From: Frankiaceae bacterium
GTDB lineage: Bacteria; Actinomycetota; Actinomycetes; BP-191
Assembly (NCBI GenBank): GCA_035556555.1
Contig: DATMES010000029.1
Location: 1 to 33,131, forward strand
Reading direction: 5' to 3'
DNA: 33,131 nt
Positions 2,904 to 31,792 of the stretch are shown here, piece by piece. Numbering within the stretch: the first letter of the stretch is position 1; every line of letters starts with the position of its first letter. The translations under genes and the position numbers were made by a program. Below the pieces are notes generated by a model that was given only the letters and a program-made list of their open reading frames with translations, ran no database searches and was not told where the DNA came from.

Positions 2904-4055
2904 CTACAGGCCGAGCTCGCGCGCGATGAGGATGCGCTGCACCTCGCTGGTGCCCTCGCCGATCTCGAGGATCTTGCAGTCGCGGTAGAAGCGCGCGACG
3001 GGGTACTCGTTGATGAAGCCGTAGCCGCCGTGCACCTGGACTGCCTCGCGGGCGTTGGTGACGGCGATCTCGGAGGAGTACAGCTTGGCGATCGCCGCCT
3101 CCTTCTTGAACGGCTCGCCGCGCAGCATCCGGTCGGCGGCGGCGTAGTACGCGAGCCGCGCGGTGTGCGTGCGCATCTCCATGTCGGCGATCTTGAACGC
3201 GATCGCCTGGTACTTGGCGATCGGCTTGCCGAACGCCTCGCGCTCCTTCGAGTACTTGACCGACTCGTCCACGCAGCCCTGCGCGAGCCCGACGCCGAGG
3301 GCGCTGATCGCGATGCGCCCCTCGTCGAGGATCGAGAGGAAGTTGGCGTAGCCGCGGCCGCGCTCGCCGAGGAGGTTCTCCTCCGGGACGCGGCAGTCGG
3401 TGAACGTGATCTCGCGGGTGTCGGACGCGTGCCAGCCGATTTTCGAGTACTTCTTCGACACCGTGAAGCCGTCGCGCGGCACGGGCACGAGGATCGACGA
3501 GATCTCCTTGCGGCCGTCGAACTCCTCGCCCGTCACGGCCGTCGCCGTGACGAGGCGCGTGATGTCGGTGCCGGAGTTGGTGATGAAGCACTTGGTGCCG
3601 TTGACGACCCAGTGCCCCGAGTCGACCTTGGCGGTGGTCCGCGTCGCGCCGGCGTCGGAGCCGCCGCCGGGCTCGGTCAGGCCGAACGCGCCCAGCGCCT
3701 CGGCGCTGCACAGCATCGGCAGCCACTCCTGCTTCTGCTCCTCGGTGCCGAAGCGGTAGACCGGCATCGCGCCGAGGGAGACGCCGGCTTCGAGCGTGAT
3801 CGCGGTCGACGAGTCGACGCGGGCCAGCTCCTCCAGCGCGAGGCAGAGCGTGAAGTAGTCGCCGCCCATGCCGCCGTACTCCTCGGGGAACGGCAGACCG
3901 AACAGCCCCAGCTCGCCCATCTGGCGGACGATGTCGTACGGGAACTCCCCCGACTCGTCCATCTCCTCGGCGCGGGGCGCGACGACGGTGCGCGCGAACT
4001 GCTCGACGGTCTTGCGGAACGTCTCCTGCTCGTCGCTGAGCCGGATGTCGACCAC
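2904..4055 (-). CDS. Acyl-CoA dehydrogenase
   Basis: FAD-dependent alpha,beta-dehydrogenation of an acyl-CoA, passing electrons to electron-transfer flavoprotein; 383 residues, normal family length. Family signatures are clear: FGLTEPGGGSDAG in the middle domain, KEREAFGKPIAKYQ, and the C-terminal VHGGYGFINEYPVARFYRD then GEGTSEVQRILIA. The catalytic base is probably Glu367 in GEGTSE, the arrangement of short-chain, isobutyryl and 2-methyl-branched dehydrogenases. Isovaleryl-CoA dehydrogenases carry a non-acidic residue there, so that identity is less likely. The GTG at 4055 is preceded by GAGGAG. The frame stays open to 4436, but the extension runs through the divergent gtrA-like gene and is spurious. 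The nearby carboxylases and mutase suggest branched-chain amino acid catabolism. Confidence 0.95.
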   Translation of the reverse strand: MVDIRLSDEQETFRKTVEQFARTVVAPRAEEMDESGEFPYDIVRQMGELGLFGLPFPEEYGGMGGDYFTLCLALEELARVDSSTAITLEAGVSLGAMPVYRFGTEEQKQEWLPMLCSAEALGAFGLTEPGGGSDAGATRTTAKVDSGHWVVNGTKCFITNSGTDITRLVTATAVTGEEFDGRKEISSILVPVPRDGFTVSKKYSKIGWHASDTREITFTDCRVPEENLLGERGRGYANFLSILDEGRIAISALGVGLAQGCVDESVKYSKEREAFGKPIAKYQAIAFKIADMEMRTHTARLAYYAAADRMLRGEPFKKEAAIAKLYSSEIAVTNAREAVQVHGGYGFINEYPVARFYRDCKILEIGEGTSEVQRILIARELGL

Positions 4056-4113
4056 GGGCGTGCTCCTCGGGACGGTGCTGGGCGTTCCGGCAGTCTCCCA
4101 TGCGAGGCGCCGG

Positions 4114-4119
4114 TAGTCT
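4114..4119 (+). promoter_or_regulatory. -10 box for a leaderless GtrA transcript
   Basis: TAGTCT (TANNNT type) ends six bases before the GTG start codon at 4126. With the usual -7 spacing, transcription would begin at or next to the start codon. No ribosome-binding site is visible upstream, which fits leaderless translation. Confidence 0.5.
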
Positions 4120-4125
4120 GAGCCG

Positions 4126-4611
4126 GTGTCGCTCGTCCGCACCGTGTACGACCGCTTCGGTGTCCTGATCCACGAGATCGCCAAGTTCGGCATCGTCGGG
4201 GCGTTCAACGCCGTCCTCGACATCGCGCTGTTCAACGTCCTGCACTTCCAGGTCGGCATCGGCCCGCTGACGTCGAAGACGCTGGCCGTCACCGTCGCGG
4301 CGACGTCGTCGTACTTCATGAACAGGCACTGGTCGTTCGCCCACCGTGCGCGCACAGGGATCAGGCGTGAGTACGTGCTCTTCATCATCCTCAGCGGCAT
4401 CGGCCTCGGCATCGCGCTGACCTGCCTCGGCTTCACCCGCTACGTCCTCGGCCGCACCGACCCGCTGTCGCTGAACATCGCCGCGAACGTCGTCGGCCTC
4501 GTCCTCGGGACCCTCTGGCGCTTCTGGTCGTTCAAGCGCTGGGTGTTCCTGCCGGCGACCGACCCCGACCTGCCCTCCCCCGTCGAAGCCGCGATCACGA
4601 CGACGACGTAA
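4126..4611 (+). CDS. GtrA-family membrane protein
   Basis: A 161-residue protein with four predicted transmembrane helices, matching the GtrA/DPMS family that helps translocate lipid-linked sugars or associates with polyprenyl-phosphate glycosyltransferases. Visible signs are the N-terminal KFGIVGAFNAVLDIALFNVL helix start, the loop SSYFMNRHWSFAH (family pattern Y-x-x-N-R-x-W-x-F), a third hydrophobic helix (LSGIGLGIALTCLGF) and the last helix ending in the family-like FWSFKRWVF. The GTG start sits immediately after a TAGTCT -10 box. It is divergent from the acyl-CoA dehydrogenase. It could cooperate with the UDP-glucose dehydrogenase at the window start in cell-envelope glycosylation, but this is inference. 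Confidence 0.9.
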   Translation: MSLVRTVYDRFGVLIHEIAKFGIVGAFNAVLDIALFNVLHFQVGIGPLTSKTLAVTVAATSSYFMNRHWSFAHRARTGIRREYVLFIILSGIGLGIALTCLGFTRYVLGRTDPLSLNIAANVVGLVLGTLWRFWSFKRWVFLPATDPDLPSPVEAAITTTT

Positions 4612-4701
4612 TTCAGGCCGGGCGTACGAGGAGCCCGCTTTCCTGCGTATATCTCCCGGCGCGTGTGCGCGCGCCGTTCTGAGAACAAGGGGGAGTTACG
4701 C

Positions 4702-5148
4702 ATGCGCAAGATCATGCTCGCGTCCGCGGCGGCGCTCACGGCGGTAGCCTTCGCGGCTCCGGCGTCGGCGATCGAGTCCGCCGACATGCTTCTGCTGGAC
4801 AGCGGGAGCGGCTACTACGGTCCGAACCGTGTCGACGGGAACTGCCAGGCCGGTCCCGGTGCGACGCTCGACCTGAACTACGTCACCTACGTCGTCCGCG
4901 GCGTGGCGCAGGCGTCGTCGACGAGCGGCGCCGTCCCTGTCGCGACGACGATCTCCTGCTGGATCAAGGACACCGTCAGCGGTGCCGTGTGGGGCCCGGC
5001 CGTGACCGGGTTCGCGCCGACGGGCACCGCTGCGGCCGCCGGCACCATCCAGGCCCGGTCGACCGGCTACCTCAAGGTGTGCACTGAGGCCTTCGCATTG
5101 TTCAACGACAACCGCCCGGCCGCGCACTACAAGACGGCGGGCTGCTAG
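4702..5148 (+). CDS. Secreted protein of unknown function
   Basis: A 148-residue protein with a textbook signal peptide (MRKIMLASAAALTAVAFAAP, cleavage after ASA at about residue 23). The mature domain is rich in small and polar residues with four cysteines (GNCQ, SCWI, VCTEA and a C-terminal Cys), suggesting a compact beta-rich, disulfide-bonded exported domain. The ATG at 4702 is chosen over 4663 because GGGGGAG lies seven bases upstream and the signal peptide begins there. An AT-rich TATATC at 4648 could be part of its -10. A strong hairpin follows the gene. I do not recognise the family. Confidence 0.85.
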   Translation: MRKIMLASAAALTAVAFAAPASAIESADMLLLDSGSGYYGPNRVDGNCQAGPGATLDLNYVTYVVRGVAQASSTSGAVPVATTISCWIKDTVSGAVWGPAVTGFAPTGTAAAAGTIQARSTGYLKVCTEAFALFNDNRPAAHYKTAGC

Positions 5149-5159
5149 TACCAGCCTTA

Positions 5160-5193
5160 GTGCGGGCAGGGGACATTGTTCGCCTGCCCGCAC
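5160..5193 (+). terminator. Hairpin terminator between two secreted-protein genes
   Basis: GTGCGGGCAGG (5160-5170) and CCTGCCCGCAC (5183-5193) are perfect 11-base inverted repeats around a 12-base loop, placed 12 bases after the upstream stop codon. Only short T runs follow, so it may attenuate rather than fully stop transcription into the next gene. Confidence 0.65.
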
Positions 5194-5229
5194 GAAGGAT
5201 TTCGGTTTCCCTTGTCGAAAGCCACGAAC

Positions 5230-6081
5230 ATGCGCGCTCGTACGGTCGTCGCGGCCGCCCTGGCCAGCGGCTTGCTCGCGCAAATGGCCGGGTCGGTGTC
5301 GGCCGCGCCCGATCGCCAGCTGGCGTTGATCGCGTACCGGACGACGACAGGTGCCGCCGCTCTCGACCTACAGGTCGACGCACCCCCGGGCAGCAAGCCG
5401 TCTGTGATCGCGATGGTCGTCGCGACGATCGACCGCAGCCGCATCGTCTCGCTCGACCTAGCGGGCGTGCTGCTCTCCGGCGAGGCCGACCGTGTCCACG
5501 TCAAGGCGAACGGCGGCGGCACCACGTTGTGCGACGAGGGTGTCTGCATGGCGGACACCAGCACGCAGTCCGCCGGCAGCGCCATCACGATCCGCAACGA
5601 CGCCGGCGACGACCGGTACAACGTGATGTTCGTCGTCGCGCGGGGCGCCTCGGTCACCTACTCCGCGAAGGCCAAGGGCTGGGCGATCAAGCGCGTCACG
5701 TTCCCGTACCGGATCACGGCCGGCGCGGACACCGCGATCGCGGCTGCCTACGGGCTCGGCTCCGGCGCCGAGGTGTTCGGCGACGTAAGCGCGCCGGGCG
5801 GAACGACGGGCAGCATCGCCGTCAGCGAGCCGCCCTGCAGCGAGTCGTACAACGGCACGGTCTCCCGCGGCGCGGGCACGCTGACGCTCGACGGCGGCGT
5901 CACACGTCCGACGTTCACCTGCCCTGCCGACCGCGGCGCACTGGCGTCGTGGTCGCGACGCAAGACCACGTGGCGAGTCCACGGCACGATGGCCGGCGAG
6001 ACGACGCAAGCGGGCGCCCGGCTGTTCGTTCTCGACCTGCCCAAGGCGCTGCCCACCCCCCGCAACTGGCCCTGGCGCTGA
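5230..6081 (+). CDS. Secreted protein of unknown function
   Basis: About 283 residues with an N-terminal signal peptide (MRARTVVAAALASGLLAQMAG, cleavage near SAA). The mature part is beta-rich with no membrane segment; four cysteines occur in two regions (TLCDEGVCMAD and PPCSES/FTCPAD), consistent with disulfides. It has a motif-poor sequence and I assign no family. The ATG at 5230 is preferred because the signal peptide starts there and GAAAG lies upstream; a TTG at 5212 or the ATG at 5176 would add residues that overlap the upstream terminator hairpin. It follows another secreted-protein gene on the same strand and ends three bases before the convergent large membrane protein gene. Confidence 0.8.
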   Translation: MRARTVVAAALASGLLAQMAGSVSAAPDRQLALIAYRTTTGAAALDLQVDAPPGSKPSVIAMVVATIDRSRIVSLDLAGVLLSGEADRVHVKANGGGTTLCDEGVCMADTSTQSAGSAITIRNDAGDDRYNVMFVVARGASVTYSAKAKGWAIKRVTFPYRITAGADTAIAAAYGLGSGAEVFGDVSAPGGTTGSIAVSEPPCSESYNGTVSRGAGTLTLDGGVTRPTFTCPADRGALASWSRRKTTWRVHGTMAGETTQAGARLFVLDLPKALPTPRNWPWR

Positions 6082-6084
6082 CCG

Positions 6085-9000
6085 CTACGCCAGCGAGTCG
6101 AACGTCTGCCGCAGCCGCGCCATGTCGCGCCGCCGGTCCTCGTACGTCACGCCGACCGCGATCACGAGCAGCCCGGTCGCGCCGATCGTCGCCCACTTCG
6201 GCAGCGCAGCCGCCATCGGCGCGAGCTGCACCAGCGCGTCCACGGCCAGCACGAAGGCACCGATCGTCAACGGCGCCTGCAGCCGTTCGCGAACACCCGC
6301 CAGCAGCACCGCGGTCCCGGCCACAGCCAGCAGCACGGGACGCGTCACGCCGGGGTCGACGAGCACGAGGTACGTCGTCGGCGCGAACGCCGCCACCGGC
6401 CCCCGCCCGTACGCCTGCCACGACCCGGTCGACGGGTCGCGGCGGCGGCGCAGGTGGCCGAGCGCCAGCGTGAGGATCGCGACCGGGGCGGCGTACGCCT
6501 CGGGCATCGTGACGTCCTCGAGCCAGAGCCTGTCCCACGTCCACGCGGTGAGCAGCACGGTCGCCGCCCAGTTGAGCCGGCGGCGGTCCTCGCGCAGCGC
6601 GTCGGCGAGACAGGTGACGCCGCCGACCGCGAGCACCCACGACAGCCAGCCGAGGTCGGGAAGGACGAGGCCGAGCGAGACGACGTACGCCGTCCCCGCC
6701 ACGACCTCGACCCGGTCGCAGTCCTCGCCGCGCAGCAAGGCGCCGATGCCCACGGCGGCCGCCGCGGCGAGCGCGACGACGAAGCCGCTGCGGTCCAGCG
6801 GCGCGCCGAGGACGTACGCCTCGACACCCGCGAAAGCGATCGCCAGCGCGACGGCGACGGGCGCCAGCACGCGGTCGCGCAACGCCGCCGCGCCGGCCGT
6901 CAGCGCGCCGATGCCGAGTGCGTACGCGAGCCACTCCAGGTCGCCCGCGGTGACGACGAGCGCGCCGGCGTAGGCGAGCGCGCCGACCGCGCTGACGTCC
7001 TCGAGCCGCAGCAGCACGCCCGCCGCGAACAGCGCGCACGCAACCGCCGCGACGACGAACGCCGCCTGCTCGGGCTCCAGCCCGTACGCCACCGGCGTCG
7101 CCGCCGCGCAGGCCGCCGTGAGCACCGCGGCGAGGCCGGCGAGGCGCCGCCGCTCGGGGCGGATCGCGTCGAGACCCACGGCGATCGCGCCGCCGCCGAG
7201 CGTCCACGCGAGCCAGCCGGTGCCGGTCATCGCGAGACCGAGGCCGACGGCGTACGCCGCGCCCGCGACGTACTCCACGGACGTCACGCGACCGCGCAGC
7301 ACGTACGCCGCGGCGAGCAGCGCGAACGACGCCGTCGCCAGCAGGAAGCCGATCCGGTCGAGCGGCGTGGCACGGGAGGCGGCGAGCGCGACGACGTACC
7401 CGGCGGCGGCGGCCGACGCGATGCCGGCCGAGGGGTCGCGCAGGGAGTCGTAGACCGCCGCGTACGCGGCGTACGCCAGCGCCACGACGAGCAGCACGAC
7501 GAGCGTCGCGTGCGTGTCGGCGAGTGACCACGCGGTCGCGACGGCGAGCACGATCGTCGCGGGCACCGCGACCACCCAGCGGCGGAAGACGTACGACGCG
7601 GCGAGGGCGGCGAGCGAGGCGGTGACGTACCAGGTCAGGGCGGCGCGGTACGACGACGCGAAGCCGAGCGGCACGAGGACGACCGCGAAGCTCGCCAGGA
7701 CGACGGCGTACCAGCGCGCGTCGCGACGGCGGTCCAGCGCCTCCGCGGTGACGAACGCCGCCAGCGTCGCGACAGCGACGACGGCGAGCGTGACGACGCT
7801 GCCGCCCCACTCGGTGCCCTCCGCGCCGAGTGCCTGACGAGCGGGCACGTCGCCGGTCAGCCCCCACGGCTCGGCGACCCAGCTCAGCGGCACGAACAGC
7901 GCCTGCACCACCCACGGCGCGACGAACGCGACGGCGACGCCGACCGTTCCCGCGCCCACGGCGACCGGGCCGCGACGCCAGGCGCGCGGGGCGCTCGCGG
8001 CGGCGACGAGCGCGAGGAGGCCGATGGCCGAGATCGCGGCGGGCAGCTGCACGAACGTCAGCGACAGCCGCGCCGGCGCGACCGCCGCGACGACGACCGC
8101 GAGCGTCGTGATGCCGGTCGTGACCGTACGGTCGCCGGGCCAGAGCAGCGCGACCGCGCCGGCCGCGACGAGCACGACAGACGCGAGGCGGACGTCGGCC
8201 TCGGCCGACGTGCCGTACGCCGTGCCTAGCGCGAGCAGCACGCCGAACGCCCAGTTGCCCAGCGCGCAGACCCTTGCGGGGAACGCCGTCCCGCCGAGCC
8301 GGTACGCGGCCACGAGCAGCACCGCGGCCTGCACGACGAGGTACGCGCCGCGTTCGGCGTCGGTGAGACCCGGCAGCCGGAACGCCGTCACGACCAGCGG
8401 TAGCTGGATGCCGGCGAGGGCGGCGTAGCGGACGCTGCGTACCGGCACGAGCCGCGCGAACCCGGCCGCGCCGGCGGCGAGGACGCCGCTCGCGATCGAC
8501 CAGTACGTCGCCGCGTCGGTGCCGGCGAGCCCGCCCAGGTTGGCGCGGCGGGCGGCGTACGCGTCGACGACGCCGAACAGCACCGTCAGCAGGCCGATGG
8601 CCTCCGCCGACGCGTCGAGGCCGCGGCGGCGCACCCAGTGCGCACTCCAGCCGGTGATGCCCGTGACCGCCAGCATGATGGCGCCGCGCGCGCCGATGGG
8701 CAGCCGCCCCCACGTGAACGCCGTGAACGCGATCGCCGCGACGACGAGCAGCAGCGCGCCGGTGGCGAGGAGGACGTTCTGGACGCGCTGCGGCGTCCAC
8801 TCCTTGCGCGGCCTCGGCGCGGGACGCGTGCGGTCCGGCGTCCAGTGGTACGCGGGCGAGGGCTCGCGGCGCTCGGCCGGCGGGGTCGCGCGCGGCGCGG
8901 GAGGACGCGGCGCGGCGTCGTACGGCGAGGTCGCCGCGGCCGCCGTCATCGCGGGCTCGCGCGCGGGCTCGTCCTGCGTGCGCAGCCTGGCCAGCAGCGC

Positions 9001-9153
9001 CACGCGCTCGCGTTCGAGGCGGTCGATGTCGTTGGAGACCTGCCAGAGGCGCAGGGCGTCAGAGCCGCGCAGCAGCAGTCCGCACCCCGTACAGCGCATC
9101 GTGCCGCGCAGCGGCTCCCCGCAGTCAGGGCAGCGGGTCGGGTCGACGTTCAT
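6085..9153 (-). CDS. Giant polytopic membrane protein, SCO7613-like
   Basis: A 1022-residue protein with a soluble N-terminus and a very long membrane region. Residues 8-24 form a zinc-ribbon (CPDC then CTGC: Cys8, Cys11, Cys21, Cys24), followed by a charged helix (about 32-60, NDIDRLERERVALLARLR), a proline/alanine-rich linker (60-118) and then, from about 126 to 1000, some thirty hydrophobic helices with regularly repeated Tyr-Ala and Gly-rich segments. This matches the actinobacterial family named after SCO7613; its function is unknown. The ATG at 9153 is chosen because GAGGGGG precedes it; the frame continues upstream to 9189 without support. The hydrophobic repeats look like internally duplicated helix pairs. 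Confidence 0.85.
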   Translation of the reverse strand: MNVDPTRCPDCGEPLRGTMRCTGCGLLLRGSDALRLWQVSNDIDRLERERVALLARLRTQDEPAREPAMTAAAATSPYDAAPRPPAPRATPPAERREPSPAYHWTPDRTRPAPRPRKEWTPQRVQNVLLATGALLLVVAAIAFTAFTWGRLPIGARGAIMLAVTGITGWSAHWVRRRGLDASAEAIGLLTVLFGVVDAYAARRANLGGLAGTDAATYWSIASGVLAAGAAGFARLVPVRSVRYAALAGIQLPLVVTAFRLPGLTDAERGAYLVVQAAVLLVAAYRLGGTAFPARVCALGNWAFGVLLALGTAYGTSAEADVRLASVVLVAAGAVALLWPGDRTVTTGITTLAVVVAAVAPARLSLTFVQLPAAISAIGLLALVAAASAPRAWRRGPVAVGAGTVGVAVAFVAPWVVQALFVPLSWVAEPWGLTGDVPARQALGAEGTEWGGSVVTLAVVAVATLAAFVTAEALDRRRDARWYAVVLASFAVVLVPLGFASSYRAALTWYVTASLAALAASYVFRRWVVAVPATIVLAVATAWSLADTHATLVVLLVVALAYAAYAAVYDSLRDPSAGIASAAAAGYVVALAASRATPLDRIGFLLATASFALLAAAYVLRGRVTSVEYVAGAAYAVGLGLAMTGTGWLAWTLGGGAIAVGLDAIRPERRRLAGLAAVLTAACAAATPVAYGLEPEQAAFVVAAVACALFAAGVLLRLEDVSAVGALAYAGALVVTAGDLEWLAYALGIGALTAGAAALRDRVLAPVAVALAIAFAGVEAYVLGAPLDRSGFVVALAAAAAVGIGALLRGEDCDRVEVVAGTAYVVSLGLVLPDLGWLSWVLAVGGVTCLADALREDRRRLNWAATVLLTAWTWDRLWLEDVTMPEAYAAPVAILTLALGHLRRRRDPSTGSWQAYGRGPVAAFAPTTYLVLVDPGVTRPVLLAVAGTAVLLAGVRERLQAPLTIGAFVLAVDALVQLAPMAAALPKWATIGATGLLVIAVGVTYEDRRRDMARLRQTFDSLA

Positions 9154-17307: not shown

Positions 17308-17523
17308 ATGACGGAGAACGCAGGCATCGACCCGCGCGTGGCCGCGGCGGAGCAGGCCGCCACGCAGGACGCGACGGGCGCACCCGACCAGACGCAGATC
17401 GCCGAGGACCCGACGGGCGAGGCCGCGGCGTACGGCGGCGTCGCCGACGACGCGGTCGGCGAGCCGGATCAGTTGAACTCGGGAAGGACCTCGGAGAGGC
17501 ACCAGCCGCCGTCGTACGGGTAG
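17308..17523 (+). CDS. Small acidic hypothetical protein (doubtful)
   Basis: A possible 71-residue acidic, low-complexity protein (ENAGIDPRVAAAEQAATQDA, then repeated Asp/Glu/Gly/Ala). It starts 24 bases from the divergent hydratase gene with an ATG but only a weak ribosome-binding site. Its last 18 or so codons overlap, on the opposite strand, the 3' end of the cysteine-rich secreted gene and read antisense through one of its repeats, so the C-terminus is probably fortuitous. The composition of the first 50 residues is natural for a small actinobacterial protein, but no family is recognised. Confidence 0.4.
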   Translation: MTENAGIDPRVAAAEQAATQDATGAPDQTQIAEDPTGEAAAYGGVADDAVGEPDQLNSGRTSERHQPPSYG

Positions 17524-17696
17524 ACGCACACGTCGTTGATCTCGTACCCGTCGGGCAGCGGGAGGGGCGTGACGCACCAGCCGCCGTCGTACGGGTAGAC
17601 GCAGCACTGACGGACGGTGCACTCCTCCGCGCTCGCGGCCGAGGGCGTGAGGAGCGCGGCGGCCGCGAGGGAGCAGGCCAGCAGGATGCGGGTCAT
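17469..17696 (-). CDS. Tiny cysteine-rich secreted protein with tandem repeat
   Basis: A 75-residue precursor: signal peptide MTRILLACSLAAAALLTPSA with cleavage after ASA (residue 23), then about 52 mature residues with six cysteines (26, 31, 32, 41, 57, 66). The decapeptide CVYPYDGGWC occurs twice (32-41 and 57-66), and the underlying DNA repeats exactly over 30 bases. The even cysteine number suggests three disulfides in the oxidising exterior. The ATG at 17696 lies 16 bases downstream of another tiny secreted gene, forming a pair. No family is recognised; secreted peptide, toxin-like or structural roles are all open. Confidence 0.75.
   Translation of the reverse strand: MTRILLACSLAAAALLTPSAASAEECTVRQCCVYPYDGGWCVTPLPLPDGYEINDVCVYPYDGGWCLSEVLPEFN
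17499..17528. repeat. Direct repeat copy 1 within the cysteine-rich gene
   Basis: Thirty bases starting GCACCAGCCGCC and ending GTAGACGCA are repeated exactly at 17574-17603, a 75-base (25-codon) offset. They encode the duplicated YPYDGGWC motif. Confidence 0.9.
17574..17603. repeat. Direct repeat copy 2 within the cysteine-rich gene
   Basis: Exact second copy of the 30-base unit at 17499-17528. Identity at the DNA level, including third codon positions, points to a recent in-frame tandem duplication. Confidence 0.9.
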
Positions 17697-17712: not shown

Positions 17713-17916
17713 TTAGTAGAGGCAGGTCGGGTAGTCGGTCCAGTAGTAGCAGCGGGCGATGCCGCACTTCTCGCCGGTCTCACCGCACGCGATCTCGCCG
17801 GCGGTGGCGCGGCAGGTCTGGACGGGGTTCTTCAGGTCGCAGAGGGCGGCCTGCGCGGAGGGGGTGGCGACCAGGGCCAGAACGGCGGTGGCGCCCGCGA
17901 GCAGGAATCGGGTCAT
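17713..17916 (-). CDS. Tiny cysteine-rich secreted protein
   Basis: A 67-residue precursor: signal peptide MTRFLLAGATAVLALVATPS with cleavage after AQA (residue 23), then about 44 mature residues with six cysteines (26, 35, 44, 51, 56, 65) and an aromatic C-terminus (RCYYWTDYPTCLY). Its signal peptide resembles that of the downstream gene (both MTR-I/F-LLA), and the two lie 16 bases apart, suggesting related or co-exported products. It starts 32 bases downstream of the PH-domain gene and may be read from the same transcript. The frame is open far upstream only as shadow. No family is recognised. Confidence 0.7.
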   Translation of the reverse strand: MTRFLLAGATAVLALVATPSAQAALCDLKNPVQTCRATAGEIACGETGEKCGIARCYYWTDYPTCLY

Positions 17917-25039: not shown

Positions 25040-25207
25040 TCAGGGGATGATGCCGCAGTCGACCTGACGGCGCTCGCAGACGTCGTAGACGTACGCGGGG
25101 ACGTAGCAGCCGTGCACCCAGCCGTCGCAGGGCAGGTCCGGCTGCGCGGACGCCGCGGGCTCTAGGGCGGCGGCGGCGAGGACCGTGGCGGCGAGCAGGC
25201 GGCGCAT
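25040..25207 (-). CDS. Tiny cysteine-containing secreted protein
   Basis: A 55-residue precursor with a signal peptide (MRRLLAATVLAAAALEPAAS, cleavage after ASA at residue 21) and a mature part of about 34 residues with four cysteines (27, 34, 44, 51), enough for two disulfides: CDGWVHGCYVPAYVYDVCER followed by CGIIP. A GGAG ribosome-binding site precedes the ATG. It is convergent with the carboxylase alpha gene. It resembles the pair at 17469-17916 in size, signal peptide and aromatic/cysteine content, but no family is recognised. Given its size the gene call is likely but not certain. Confidence 0.65.
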   Translation of the reverse strand: MRRLLAATVLAAAALEPAASAQPDLPCDGWVHGCYVPAYVYDVCERRQVDCGIIP

Positions 25208-28900: not shown

Positions 28901-29491
28901 TCAGCAGCGGTCCGCGAGGCGGTAGTAGGCCATCGTGATCGCCGAACCGGTCCGCGCCGAGACGCCGACGTCGATCCGGACGCGGCCTGTCGGCGTGCCC
29001 GGCGCGACCCGCCAGGCCGCGGTGAAGCGGCCCTCGCCGTCGGCGCGGCCACGCGGCTCCGCGCCGCCGTGCACGACGCCGGTGCGGTGGTCGGGGTACA
29101 GGTTGTCGAACGCCACGAACGCCCCCGCGACCGTCACCACGACGACGTGCTGCTCGGCGCCAGGGGTGACGCAGTCGCGGGCCAGCGTGACGCGCAACGG
29201 CGCCGACGACGGCAGCCCAGAGGGCAGGGGCGGGTCGGCAGAGGGGTCCGCGCCGCGGCTGGCGGCCGGCGCGGACCGGCGGGCCGGCACGCCGGCCGGG
29301 GTCGTGCCCTGCGCGGCCGCGGCGGGGCTCGACGACAACGTCGGCGCGGCGCTGACCGGCGCGGCCGACGAACGAGCGGGAGCGGGGGACGTACGCGGCG
29401 CTGCGGTGGGTGCGGTCGTACCGCAGGCGCCGAGGCAGAGGGCCAGCAGGAGCGCCGTCCCGGTGTGCCGCGCGGTCGTCCCGCGCGGCAC
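28901..29491 (-). CDS. Lipoprotein of unknown function
   Basis: From the GTG at 29491 this is a 196-residue lipoprotein: basic n-region RGTTARHTG, hydrophobic TALLLALCL and lipobox LGAC (Cys23), then an Ala/Pro/Ser-rich linker (about 24-90) and a C-terminal beta-rich domain (LRVTLARDCVTPGAEQHVVV, then AAWRVAPGTPTGRVRIDVGV) resembling exported immunoglobulin-like domains, ending in Cys. The frame is open to 29653, which would add a Pro/Gly-rich stretch with no signal features, so the shorter start is preferred. However, an ECF-type promoter candidate lies just before 29653, leaving either a long start or a structured 190-base leader. Confidence 0.65.
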   Translation of the reverse strand: MPRGTTARHTGTALLLALCLGACGTTAPTAAPRTSPAPARSSAAPVSAAPTLSSSPAAAAQGTTPAGVPARRSAPAASRGADPSADPPLPSGLPSSAPLRVTLARDCVTPGAEQHVVVVTVAGAFVAFDNLYPDHRTGVVHGGAEPRGRADGEGRFTAAWRVAPGTPTGRVRIDVGVSARTGSAITMAYYRLADRC

Positions 29492-29496
29492 ACCGG
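29460..29496. repeat. Perfect 16-base inverted repeat at the lipoprotein start
   Basis: Positions 29460-29475 (CCGGTGTGCCGCGCGG) and 29481-29496 (CCGCGCGGCACACCGG) are perfect complements around TCGTC. The arm contains the GTG start at 29491, so in mRNA the start codon would be paired. Confidence 0.85.
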
Positions 29497-29497
29497 C

Positions 29498-29539
29498 GGA
29501 TCCGGGGGCGGCCGGCCCCCGCGCGGTCGCCCCGGATCC
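29498..29539. repeat. Inverted repeat upstream of the lipoprotein start
   Basis: GGATCCGGGG (29498-29507) and CCCCGGATCC (29530-29539) are perfect 10-base complements enclosing an inner GGGGG/CCCCC pair. They sit directly beside the 29460-29496 repeat, and CCGGGTGC/GCACCCGG arms lie just beyond (about 29548-29588). Confidence 0.7.
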
Positions 29540-29688
29540 TGGCGCCCCGGGTGCCACTCCGCCTGCGCTGTCGGAGGAGCACCCGGGTGACACCCCGCCG
29601 GCCGGCGACGGGTGGCCGCCGGTGCCCTCGAGGGGCGGGTACGGCAGCGTCACGAGTCAGCCAATCGACGATTTGGGCGTCTGGAAGC

Positions 29689-29716
29689 AGTACGCACGAA
29701 GTGCCCTGCTTGTTAC
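29689..29716 (-). promoter_or_regulatory. ECF-type promoter candidate (site b)
   Basis: On the minus strand GTAAC (29716-29712), 17 bases, then CGTACT (29694-29689). The start would fall near 29682, upstream of both possible lipoprotein start codons. Confidence 0.5.
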
Positions 29717-29746: not shown

Positions 29747-30283
29747 TCAGTACGCGAGCTCCACGGCGCCGGTCACCGCGACCGGCATCGACGCGCCGCA
29801 CGCGGGCACACCCGCGGGGGTGAACAGCGCCGCGCCCGTCGCGTCACCCGAGATGACGGCGACCAGCCCGGCCCGCGTCCACGTCGCGCGGATGTCCTCG
29901 CTCCACGCGCCCGTCACGGCGTCGTGCACCTTGCCGGTCAGCTCCGCCGAGCCGACCGGGCTCAGCCCCGTGCCGGCGGCGCAGGTCTCCGTGTACGTCG
30001 CCCGCACCTGCAGGCCGTCGACCGCCTCCGCGCCCAGCGCGGCCGCGTCGAGCGCCGTGCCGGCCGCCGCGCCGCTGGACTCCGCGGCGTTCGCGCAGGC
30101 CTTGGCCGGTCCGAAGAAGCAGACGTCGGTGATCACCTGCTGCGCGACGGCGCGCGGCGTGATCTGGATCGTTCCCGCGAACGTCACGACGCCGGTCGAG
30201 GCGGCGTCGCTCGGCTGGGCGAGCGCGAGGACGAGCGCGGGTACGACGGTGGCGAGCCCCATGGTCTTGCGGATGTTCGACAT
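29747..30283 (-). CDS. Secreted protein of unknown function
   Basis: A 178-residue protein with a signal peptide (SNIRKTMGLATVVPALVLAL, cleavage after DAA near residue 28). The mature part is beta-rich and alanine/glycine-rich with four cysteines (DVCFFG, KACANA, ETCAAG, PACGAS), suggesting two disulfides. A GAAGGAAGG ribosome-binding site precedes the ATG. It is divergent from the membrane-tethered sigma factor gene across 141 bases that contain an ECF-type promoter candidate for this gene. I assign no family; the position makes it a likely target or partner of the sigma factor. Confidence 0.8.
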   Translation of the reverse strand: MSNIRKTMGLATVVPALVLALAQPSDAASTGVVTFAGTIQITPRAVAQQVITDVCFFGPAKACANAAESSGAAAGTALDAAALGAEAVDGLQVRATYTETCAAGTGLSPVGSAELTGKVHDAVTGAWSEDIRATWTRAGLVAVISGDATGAALFTPAGVPACGASMPVAVTGAVELAY

Positions 30284-30351: not shown

Positions 30352-30378
30352 ATACCGGTTTGGCGGCCTCCGCGTTAC
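30352..30378 (-). promoter_or_regulatory. ECF-type promoter candidate (site c)
   Basis: On the minus strand GTAAC (30378-30374), 16 bases, then CGGTAT (30357-30352). The -10 half is a weaker match than in sites a, b and d. It faces the secreted-protein gene starting at 30283 and lies in the divergent gap with the sigma factor gene. Confidence 0.45.
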
Positions 30379-30424: not shown

Positions 30425-31492
30425 ATGACGGTCGCGCGGGTGGAGCCGGACGAGCCCGGGCCGGAGTGGAGCGGCGCGGAGTTCGCCGCGATCTGCGACA
30501 GCCACCGCGGCCGGCTCGTCCGGTGGCTCACGGCGATCTTCGGCCCCCGCGACGCCGAGGACATCGCGCAGGAGGCGCTCGTGCGTCTCTACGAGCGTCC
30601 CGGCATGCTCGACGAGGACGCCGACCCGTGGCCTTGGCTGGCCGTCGTCGCGCGCAACGTCGGGCGCGACATGGCGCGGCACAACGCGTTCTCCCTCGCG
30701 GTCGACGCCGAGACGCTCGACCGGCTGCCCGACGCGGCGCGCGTGCACGAGCAGGTCGTGGCCCGCGACGACGCCGAACGCCTTCATCTCGCCCTGCGCG
30801 CCATCACCCCGCGCGACCGGGCGCTCATCACCCTGCGCGACGTGCAGGGCGTCTCCGTCGGCGACATCGCCGAGCGGCTCGGGATGAACGACAACGCCGT
30901 ACGCCAGCAGCTGTTCCGCGCGCGCAAGCGGCTGGCGAGCGCGTACACGGAGCTCGGCGGCGACCGGCAGGCCGGTCTCCTCGCGGGGCTCGGCGTGCGG
31001 TGGCGCGAGTTCGTGCGCAAGCACGGGCACGTGTTCGACGCGCTCGGCCCGACGGCGTCGCAGATGCTGGCGCACGCCGGGCCGGTCGCCGCGGCGATCG
31101 TGGCGGGCGTGCTCGTCATCGTCACCGGTGGGCCGGAAGGCACGCCGGCCACCCCCGCCGCGTCGTCGGCGCCGTACAGCGCGCCCGCGCTCGACCCGCG
31201 CGAGAGCGTGCGACACCCGCGCGCGCTGGGCGCATCGCTCGGCGGCGTGGCGACGCGGACCGCGCCGCCCGACTCCGACCCGCCGCTGTTCGAGTACGAG
31301 AGGAAGGTCGGTCCCGCCAGCATCAGGACGACGGTGTACAAGCTGCCCGTCGGGGACGGGCAGAAGGACGACACGCACGTCCGCGTCGACGACGTCCCCG
31401 TGGTCGGCTACGTCGAGGTCACCTCGCGCCAGTCCACGTACGGCAACCGCCGCAGGGACCGGCTCTGCAAGGTCTTCTGCCGACCCTCCTAG
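30425..31492 (+). CDS. ECF-like sigma factor with C-terminal membrane anchor and exported tail
   Basis: A 355-residue sigma-70-family protein. Region 2 spans about 18-86 (FAAICDSHRGRLVRWLTAIF, PRDAEDIAQEALVRLYERP, PWPWLAVVARN) and region 4 about 122-177 (ITPRDRALITLRDVQGVSVG then DIAERLGMNDNAVRQQLFRA). Unlike ordinary ECF factors (about 180-200 residues), it continues through an amphipathic segment, one transmembrane helix (about 217-235, GPVAAAIVAGVLVIVTGG) and an outside tail of about 120 residues with CKVFC near the end (Cys348, Cys352). No separate anti-sigma gene is visible, so the anchor may itself hold the factor at the membrane. GGAGAGGAG precedes the ATG; the frame open from 30338 is noise. 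It is surrounded by secreted-protein genes. Confidence 0.9.
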   Translation: MTVARVEPDEPGPEWSGAEFAAICDSHRGRLVRWLTAIFGPRDAEDIAQEALVRLYERPGMLDEDADPWPWLAVVARNVGRDMARHNAFSLAVDAETLDRLPDAARVHEQVVARDDAERLHLALRAITPRDRALITLRDVQGVSVGDIAERLGMNDNAVRQQLFRARKRLASAYTELGGDRQAGLLAGLGVRWREFVRKHGHVFDALGPTASQMLAHAGPVAAAIVAGVLVIVTGGPEGTPATPAASSAPYSAPALDPRESVRHPRALGASLGGVATRTAPPDSDPPLFEYERKVGPASIRTTVYKLPVGDGQKDDTHVRVDDVPVVGYVEVTSRQSTYGNRRRDRLCKVFCRPS

Positions 31493-31710
31493 TCCTTGGG
31501 ATGGCAGACCACGACGCGAACGCCCCCCGCGCCCGTTCCGGTGGTGTTCTCCCGGCACTCGACCTCGTCGTCGTACGCCACGCACGGGTTGGCGAGCACG
31601 ACGTCGTCCCCCGAGCCGGTGAGGGCGACGTACTGGCAGAGGTCGGCGGCGGCGCCGGGAGCGGGAATCAGGCAGAACGCGAGCAGGACGAAACAGGCGT
31701 ACCTGGGCAT
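31489..31710 (-). CDS. Tiny cysteine-containing secreted protein
   Basis: A 73-residue precursor with a signal peptide (MPRYACFVLLAFCLIPAPGA, cleavage after AAA near residue 23) and a mature part of about 50 residues with four cysteines (25, 43, 52, 69): DLCQYVAL, NPCVAYDDEVECRENT and VVVCHPKD. It is convergent with the sigma factor gene and shares with it the palindromic CTAG at 31489-31492, which supplies both stop codons. A longer start at 31731 adds only MPVSRYR. A GTAAC-N16-CGTACT promoter candidate lies upstream. Product family unknown. Confidence 0.75.
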   Translation of the reverse strand: MPRYACFVLLAFCLIPAPGAAADLCQYVALTGSGDDVVLANPCVAYDDEVECRENTTGTGAGGVRVVVCHPKD

Positions 31711-31765: not shown

Positions 31766-31792
31766 AGTACGGCCCAGCCCGGCCCGCGTTAC
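31766..31792 (-). promoter_or_regulatory. ECF-type promoter candidate (site d)
   Basis: On the minus strand GTAAC (31792-31788), 16 bases, then CGTACT (31771-31766). A start near 31759 gives a 49-base leader to the ATG at 31710. The -35 context CCGTAACGCGG is nearly the same as at site c. Confidence 0.55.

Follow-up and report, generated by a model that had tools for sequence, protein, structure and literature searches.

Most ECF sigma factors are held by separate anti-sigma proteins. The described systems closest to the one reported here carry a regulatory or anchoring part within the sigma chain. The actinobacterial groups ECF48, ECF52, and ECF53 have C-terminal extensions that include a zinc-finger anti-sigma domain, and proteolytic release has been proposed for them (PMC8999054). 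In the ECF52 protein SCO4117 of Streptomyces coelicolor, the chain comprises the sigma part, a zinc finger, a membrane helix, a proline-rich region, and a carbohydrate-binding domain (PMC5826349). IutY of Pseudomonas putida (ECF243), a sigma factor fused to a membrane anchor, becomes active when Prc and RseP cleave it (PMC8999054). For about 15 further ECF groups, the C-terminal extensions have been rated unstudied (PMC8999054).

The window analyzed in this study, a stretch of 33,131 nucleotides from a Frankiaceae bacterium, encodes an ECF sigma factor of 355 residues which appears to be self-anchored (30425-31492, plus strand; ATG at 30425, TAG at 31490-31492). A preliminary description of this DNA had proposed sigma regions 2 and 4, one transmembrane helix, and an outside tail of about 120 residues ending in a C-x3-C pair, and all of these elements are borne out. 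Region 2 (residues 25-87, 30497-30685; Pfam PF04542, Sigma70_r2, E 9.6e-9) and region 4 with its helix-turn-helix (residues 118-170, 30776-30934; PF08281, Sigma70_r4_2, E 3.1e-15) both exceed the curated Pfam cut-offs. The same two domains are found in 18/18 members of the family described below, and regions 1 and 3 are absent, as expected for an ECF factor. The AlphaFold2 model, built with an 18-sequence alignment, is confident for both sigma domains (pLDDT ~90 and ~95, respectively) and places two further helices at residues 181-199 and 210-233. The matches of the model in Foldseek cover the sigma domains only, the best being ECF sigma factors such as SigL and SigH of M. tuberculosis.

The transmembrane helix, at about residues 213-233 (31061-31123), coincides with the second of these helices and with the single hydrophobic helix of the protein (residues 215-233, Kyte-Doolittle mean of 2.25 over 19 residues). 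Summed over the 33 proteins of the family, Lys and Arg number 152 in the 25 residues before the helix and 59 after it. This positive-inside bias, together with the hydrophobicity, supports a topology in which the sigma part lies inside and the tail outside, as read from these two properties. The exported tail (residues 234-355, 31124-31489) measures 122 residues and consists of a linker rich in proline and alanine, predicted to be disordered up to about residue 287, and a small beta-rich domain modeled as five strands (residues 289-353, pLDDT ~70); the AlphaFold2 confidence is low for the membrane helix, the linker, and the tail domain. The chain terminates in LCKVFCRPS, which holds the C348-x3-C352 pair (31466-31480). 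Pfam shows no match past residue 175, and the tail matches no family in Pfam or NCBIfam. Sensing of the outside state is the natural reading of such a tail.

The preliminary description was also right that no separate anti-sigma gene lies nearby: among the window neighbors of the sigma gene, called with a simple codon-usage caller, we find secreted-protein genes, a putative lipoprotein gene, and a methylmalonyl-CoA mutase gene, none of them anti-sigma-like. Elsewhere in the window (6085-9153, minus strand), a protein of 1022 residues combines an N-terminal zinc-ribbon-like motif with about 27 predicted membrane helices.

Like ECF48, ECF52, and ECF53, the protein is an actinobacterial ECF sigma factor that contains a membrane helix of its own and, after it, a proline-rich exported tail. 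Unlike them, it has no zinc-finger (ZAS-like) domain, and it also lacks the carbohydrate-binding domain of ECF52; conversely, it has a cysteine pair at its C-terminus and a linked gene for a small secreted cysteine protein, both described below. None of 18 members matches a zinc-finger family at E ≤ 0.01, and no ECF52-type C-terminal carbohydrate-binding domain is matched by Pfam in the tail. Because both domains were sought and not found, we did not file the protein as ECF52. The preliminary description was correct that some actinobacterial ECF groups have C-terminal extensions, as ECF48, ECF52, and ECF53 do (PMC8999054), but their zinc-finger anti-sigma domain is missing from the present family. 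The family may nevertheless work like ECF52.

Other systems share single features with the family. IutY also has a sigma part fused to its own membrane anchor, but it carries a FecR-type, iron-starvation anti-sigma moiety and works with an outer-membrane receptor; the members show no FecR-type domain, and the genes listed for the window include none for a receptor. As with RseA/RpoE and RsiW/SigW, an outside state would govern a sigma factor across the membrane, with envelope or secreted functions as targets, except that here there is no separate anti-sigma and both the anchor and the outside domain belong to the sigma chain. The groups ECF41, ECF42, ECF56, and ECF238 likewise have a C-terminal regulatory extension and no anti-sigma, but their extensions (SnoaL, TPR, metal-binding) are cytoplasmic, and no domain of the SnoaL, TPR, or metal type was found in the family members. 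A literature search, mostly of open-access papers, returned no description of a membrane-anchored sigma factor associated with a small secreted cysteine protein.

The same architecture is found in 33 proteins, the window sigma included, from five actinobacterial families. Full-length relatives in families f1, f11, f13, f21, and f35 were retrieved by a profile search over 198 genomes of the class, which also turned up a variant in f22. The source genome (G000, 4.0 Mb) encodes six anchored sigmas and twelve plain ECF sigmas, and more anchored sigmas are present in two congeneric genomes. The terminal cysteine pair occurs in all 33 members, and C348 and C352 are present in every sequence of the 18-sequence alignment, although its mean column identity is only 31%. 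The recurrence of this architecture in 33 proteins and five families, with cysteines kept in a fast-evolving tail, places it beyond chance. Two types can be distinguished. Type II (21/33 proteins) ends in C-x(3-8)-C, 0-6 residues from the C-terminus, whereas type I (12/33) has C-x(10-13)-C, its loci lying in a conserved YlbL neighborhood. Between orthologues, identity is 41-91% in the sigma core, 32-58% in the tail, and 22-72% in the small protein; judged from these values, both outside parts diverge fast and at similar rates.

Related arrangements are also seen outside the family. L305, a locus from another class that was counted outside the family, combines the sigma with the small gene in a type I-like overlap, and L300, also outside, has a cysteine-pair tail and lacks the small gene. 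At L146, L224-L226, L301-L303, and L306, ECF sigmas carry a membrane helix near the C-terminus and a long tail without the terminal cysteine pair, some of them in genomes of 1.2-1.5 Mb (family f25). Self-anchoring of ECF sigmas therefore looks widespread across the phylum.

The feature overlooked in the preliminary description is the gene that adjoins every member. In the window, this gene (31489-31710, minus strand) encodes a protein of 73 residues with a signal peptide and four cysteines in its mature part, and its stop codon overlaps that of the sigma gene (CTAG). Inspection by hand showed a gene for a signal-peptide protein of 55-95 residues adjoining the sigma stop codon in 33/33 loci, with two cysteines in type I and usually four in type II. 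An automated adjacency rule found such a gene beside 29/32 called anchored sigmas, 0/13 plain sigmas, and 29/177 other genes (Fisher p 3e-16), the last count being inflated by the genes that flank the same small genes on the opposite side. The rule failed on L128, L138, and L219, where gene calling or the choice of start codon hid the small gene; all three were confirmed by eye. Within the source genome, the small gene lies beside 6/6 anchored sigmas and 0/12 plain ECF sigmas (p 5e-5), the latter being followed by other genes, mostly anti-sigma-like. In type I loci, where both genes are on the same strand, the start codon of the small gene lies inside the sigma stop (ATGA) in 10/12 cases, in the usual place of an anti-sigma gene; this overlap is found in none of the convergent loci.

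Every small protein has cysteines 1 and 2, and L133 and L138 lack both cysteine 3 and cysteine 4; this joint loss suggests disulfide pairing of 1 with 2 and of 3 with 4. AlphaFold2 models the small protein of the window as a small beta sheet (pLDDT 77), and neither Pfam nor NCBIfam offers a convincing family match. Homology between the tail and the small protein was considered and rejected (hhalign probability ~0.1%), and the two show no correlated divergence over all paralogues (Mantel p 0.73), a test weakened by short, diverged sequences. Since there is neither similarity nor a distance correlation, linkage is the one feature of the sequences that points to a possible direct interaction between tail and small protein.

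Several genes of this kind are found in other settings. At L227 (1890-2123, plus strand), an orphan small-family gene lies between ribF-like and truB-like genes and the sigma is absent, while the counterpart site in the source genome (L145) has an anchored sigma plus the small gene. At L223, an anchored sigma cut by the contig end (2-598) and a small gene (3321-3500) flank a histidine kinase/response regulator pair. The window itself contains further genes for small secreted cysteine-rich proteins with no adjoining sigma (17469-17696, 17713-17916, and 25040-25207, all on the minus strand); a congeneric genome (L162) encodes a relative of the last product. Such proteins are numerous in the genus, with three in tandem at L167.

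A second feature absent from the preliminary description is a putative ECF-type promoter motif, GTAAC-N16/17-CGTA, that recurs before the small genes and before those transcribed divergently from the sigma. At the loci from which it was defined, the motif precedes 13/21 small genes and 9/16 divergent genes, together 22/37 (p 3e-19), compared with 0/20 sigma genes, 2/203 other genes, and 0.6% of simulated upstream regions. One of the two matches among other genes is a small gene already counted, taken with a different start, and the other is a secreted protein two genes from its sigma. The motif is absent before 8/21 small genes (e.g., L131, L132, L133, L135, L145, and L218-L220). Autoregulation of the sigma through this motif was rejected, as none of the 20 sigma genes has it. 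In the orthologue trio L134, L136, and L137, GTCCC replaces GTAAC before both genes in all three species, which indicates that the -35 element follows the sigma.

Because, save for the genome-wide control and the case of G069, the motif was read off the loci in which it was counted, the further checks in congeneric genomes, other families, and f13 genomes matter. The strict motif occurs 28 times in three congeneric genomes and its reversed control 0 times; 24/28 sites lie outside called genes, many of them before secreted-protein genes. In ten genomes of other families, the 30-odd matches equal the control, and in six f13 genomes there are 40 matches versus 17 for the control. In G069, the motif alone led to a previously unseen pair of sites between a secreted-protein gene and a new gene for a four-cysteine small protein.

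In the window, a promoter-like site GTAAC-N16-CGTAC (31767-31792, minus strand) lies 57 bp upstream of the small gene. The divergently transcribed gene (29747-30283, minus strand) encodes a secreted protein of 178 residues conserved beside the orthologous sigma in L128, L129, and L130, and is preceded by a degenerate site, GTAAC ... CGGTAT (30352-30378, minus strand), which is weak here and has exact copies in the L128 and L129 orthologues. Another promoter-like site, GTAAC-N17-CGTAC (29690-29716, minus strand), stands before the third gene of the locus (28901-29653, minus strand; start codon at 29653 or 29491), which encodes a putative secreted protein or lipoprotein with a relative near the orthologous sigma in L128, L129, and L130.

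The identity of the divergent gene varies from locus to locus and includes secreted proteins, VWA or BNR proteins, and GAF/histidine-kinase proteins. In L138, this neighbor (3589-5595) is a GAF-domain histidine kinase according to Pfam, and the divergent neighbors in L215 (88-2178, minus strand) and L216 (82-2148, minus strand) look similar to it. These kinase neighbors suggest cross-talk with two-component systems. At L289 (1501-2816), three GTAAC-N17-CGTA sites follow one another, of which at least two precede copies of a secreted-protein gene, with no sigma seen close by; from its sequence, this is a probable remote target cluster.

We propose, with somewhat more confidence than doubt, that these proteins are one-protein transmembrane signaling devices in which the tail senses the outside, the anchor is probably cleaved, and the freed sigma directs transcription of its small partner and of other secreted proteins. 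The whole account is derived from sequence. Regions 2 and 4 would be tethered at the inner face of the membrane by their own helix, and the linker would hold outside a small beta-rich domain, closed by the C-terminal cysteine pair, that reads the outside state. The small secreted cysteine protein, present in the same compartment as the tail, would most likely be its partner or feedback ligand. A change outside would then free the sigma part, most likely through cleavage first in the tail and next in the membrane helix. The freed sigma would bring RNA polymerase to the GTAAC-N16/17-CGTA promoters, its targets being the small gene and genes for secreted proteins, among them the divergent one.

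We prefer a partner or feedback-ligand role for the small protein because it shares the compartment of the tail and no other gene is so constantly linked to the sigma. The chief rival is a mere-target role, in which the small protein is the main output of the sigma only, as a secreted effector or wall protein, and the tail senses something else. We regard this as a serious possibility, although a less probable one. Presence of the motif before 13 of the 21 type II small genes, and also before non-adjacent secreted-protein genes, would fit an output, as would the convergent orientation of the type II small gene, which must therefore be transcribed separately, and the persistence of the sigma-less orphan at L227. 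Against it, the small gene accompanies the sigma in every locus, a closer tie than that of the divergent gene, whose identity varies, and in type I the small gene is translationally coupled to the sigma gene. A stronger version of the partner role is that the small disulfide-type protein, exported by the cell itself, binds the tail of its own sigma and gates its release, several insulated pairs coexisting per genome with matching promoter specificity. This version is tentative, and we consider it rather doubtful. If true, such a ligand/sigma pair would let the cell monitor export, disulfide formation, the state of its surface, or its neighbors.

The release step of the proposed mechanism is the point at which a second alternative differs. 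ToxR and CadC are membrane-bound regulators. The sigma might be active in the membrane in a similar manner, the tail altering its oligomeric state or exposing the sigma domains with no cleavage. The members have no detectable anti-sigma domain that would need removal and no conserved cleavage motif was found, both in keeping with this alternative, but a tethered sigma would have to draw RNA polymerase to the membrane. We infer proteolytic release instead, because the anchored sigma IutY is switched on through cleavage by Prc and RseP and the same is proposed for ECF48, ECF52, and ECF53 (PMC8999054), and we judge activity in the membrane to be unlikely. The source genome contains a gene for an M50 site-2-type protease. 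Such proteases are near-universal among genomes. The YlbL PDZ protease encoded near the type I loci, considered as a dedicated site-1 protease for their sigmas, was rejected as evidence, the YlbL neighborhood being present in sigma-less genomes as well.

That the family is an ordinary ECF48/52/53-type sigma/anti-sigma fusion whose anti-sigma domain has diverged beyond recognition is already improbable from the sequences, and we give it little credence: the order of sigma part, membrane helix, and proline-rich outside part and the phylum are alike (PMC8999054, PMC5826349) and the predicted helix at 181-199 lies between region 4 and the membrane helix, but only about 40 residues separate these two, the zinc finger is matched in 0/18 members with no conserved H-x3-C-x2-C, and the tail has no carbohydrate-binding domain.

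The self-anchored sigma with its small secreted protein appears to be a means, not described so far, by which a cell can sense its surroundings and dispense with a separate anti-sigma factor. With six copies in the source genome, a linked small secreted protein, and a candidate promoter, the proposal is directly testable, and such proteins might be of use in synthetic biology as insulated sigma switches that sense the outside. Uniting an outside domain, a membrane helix, and a sigma factor in a single protein, the family would be the shortest path from the outside of the cell to a promoter.
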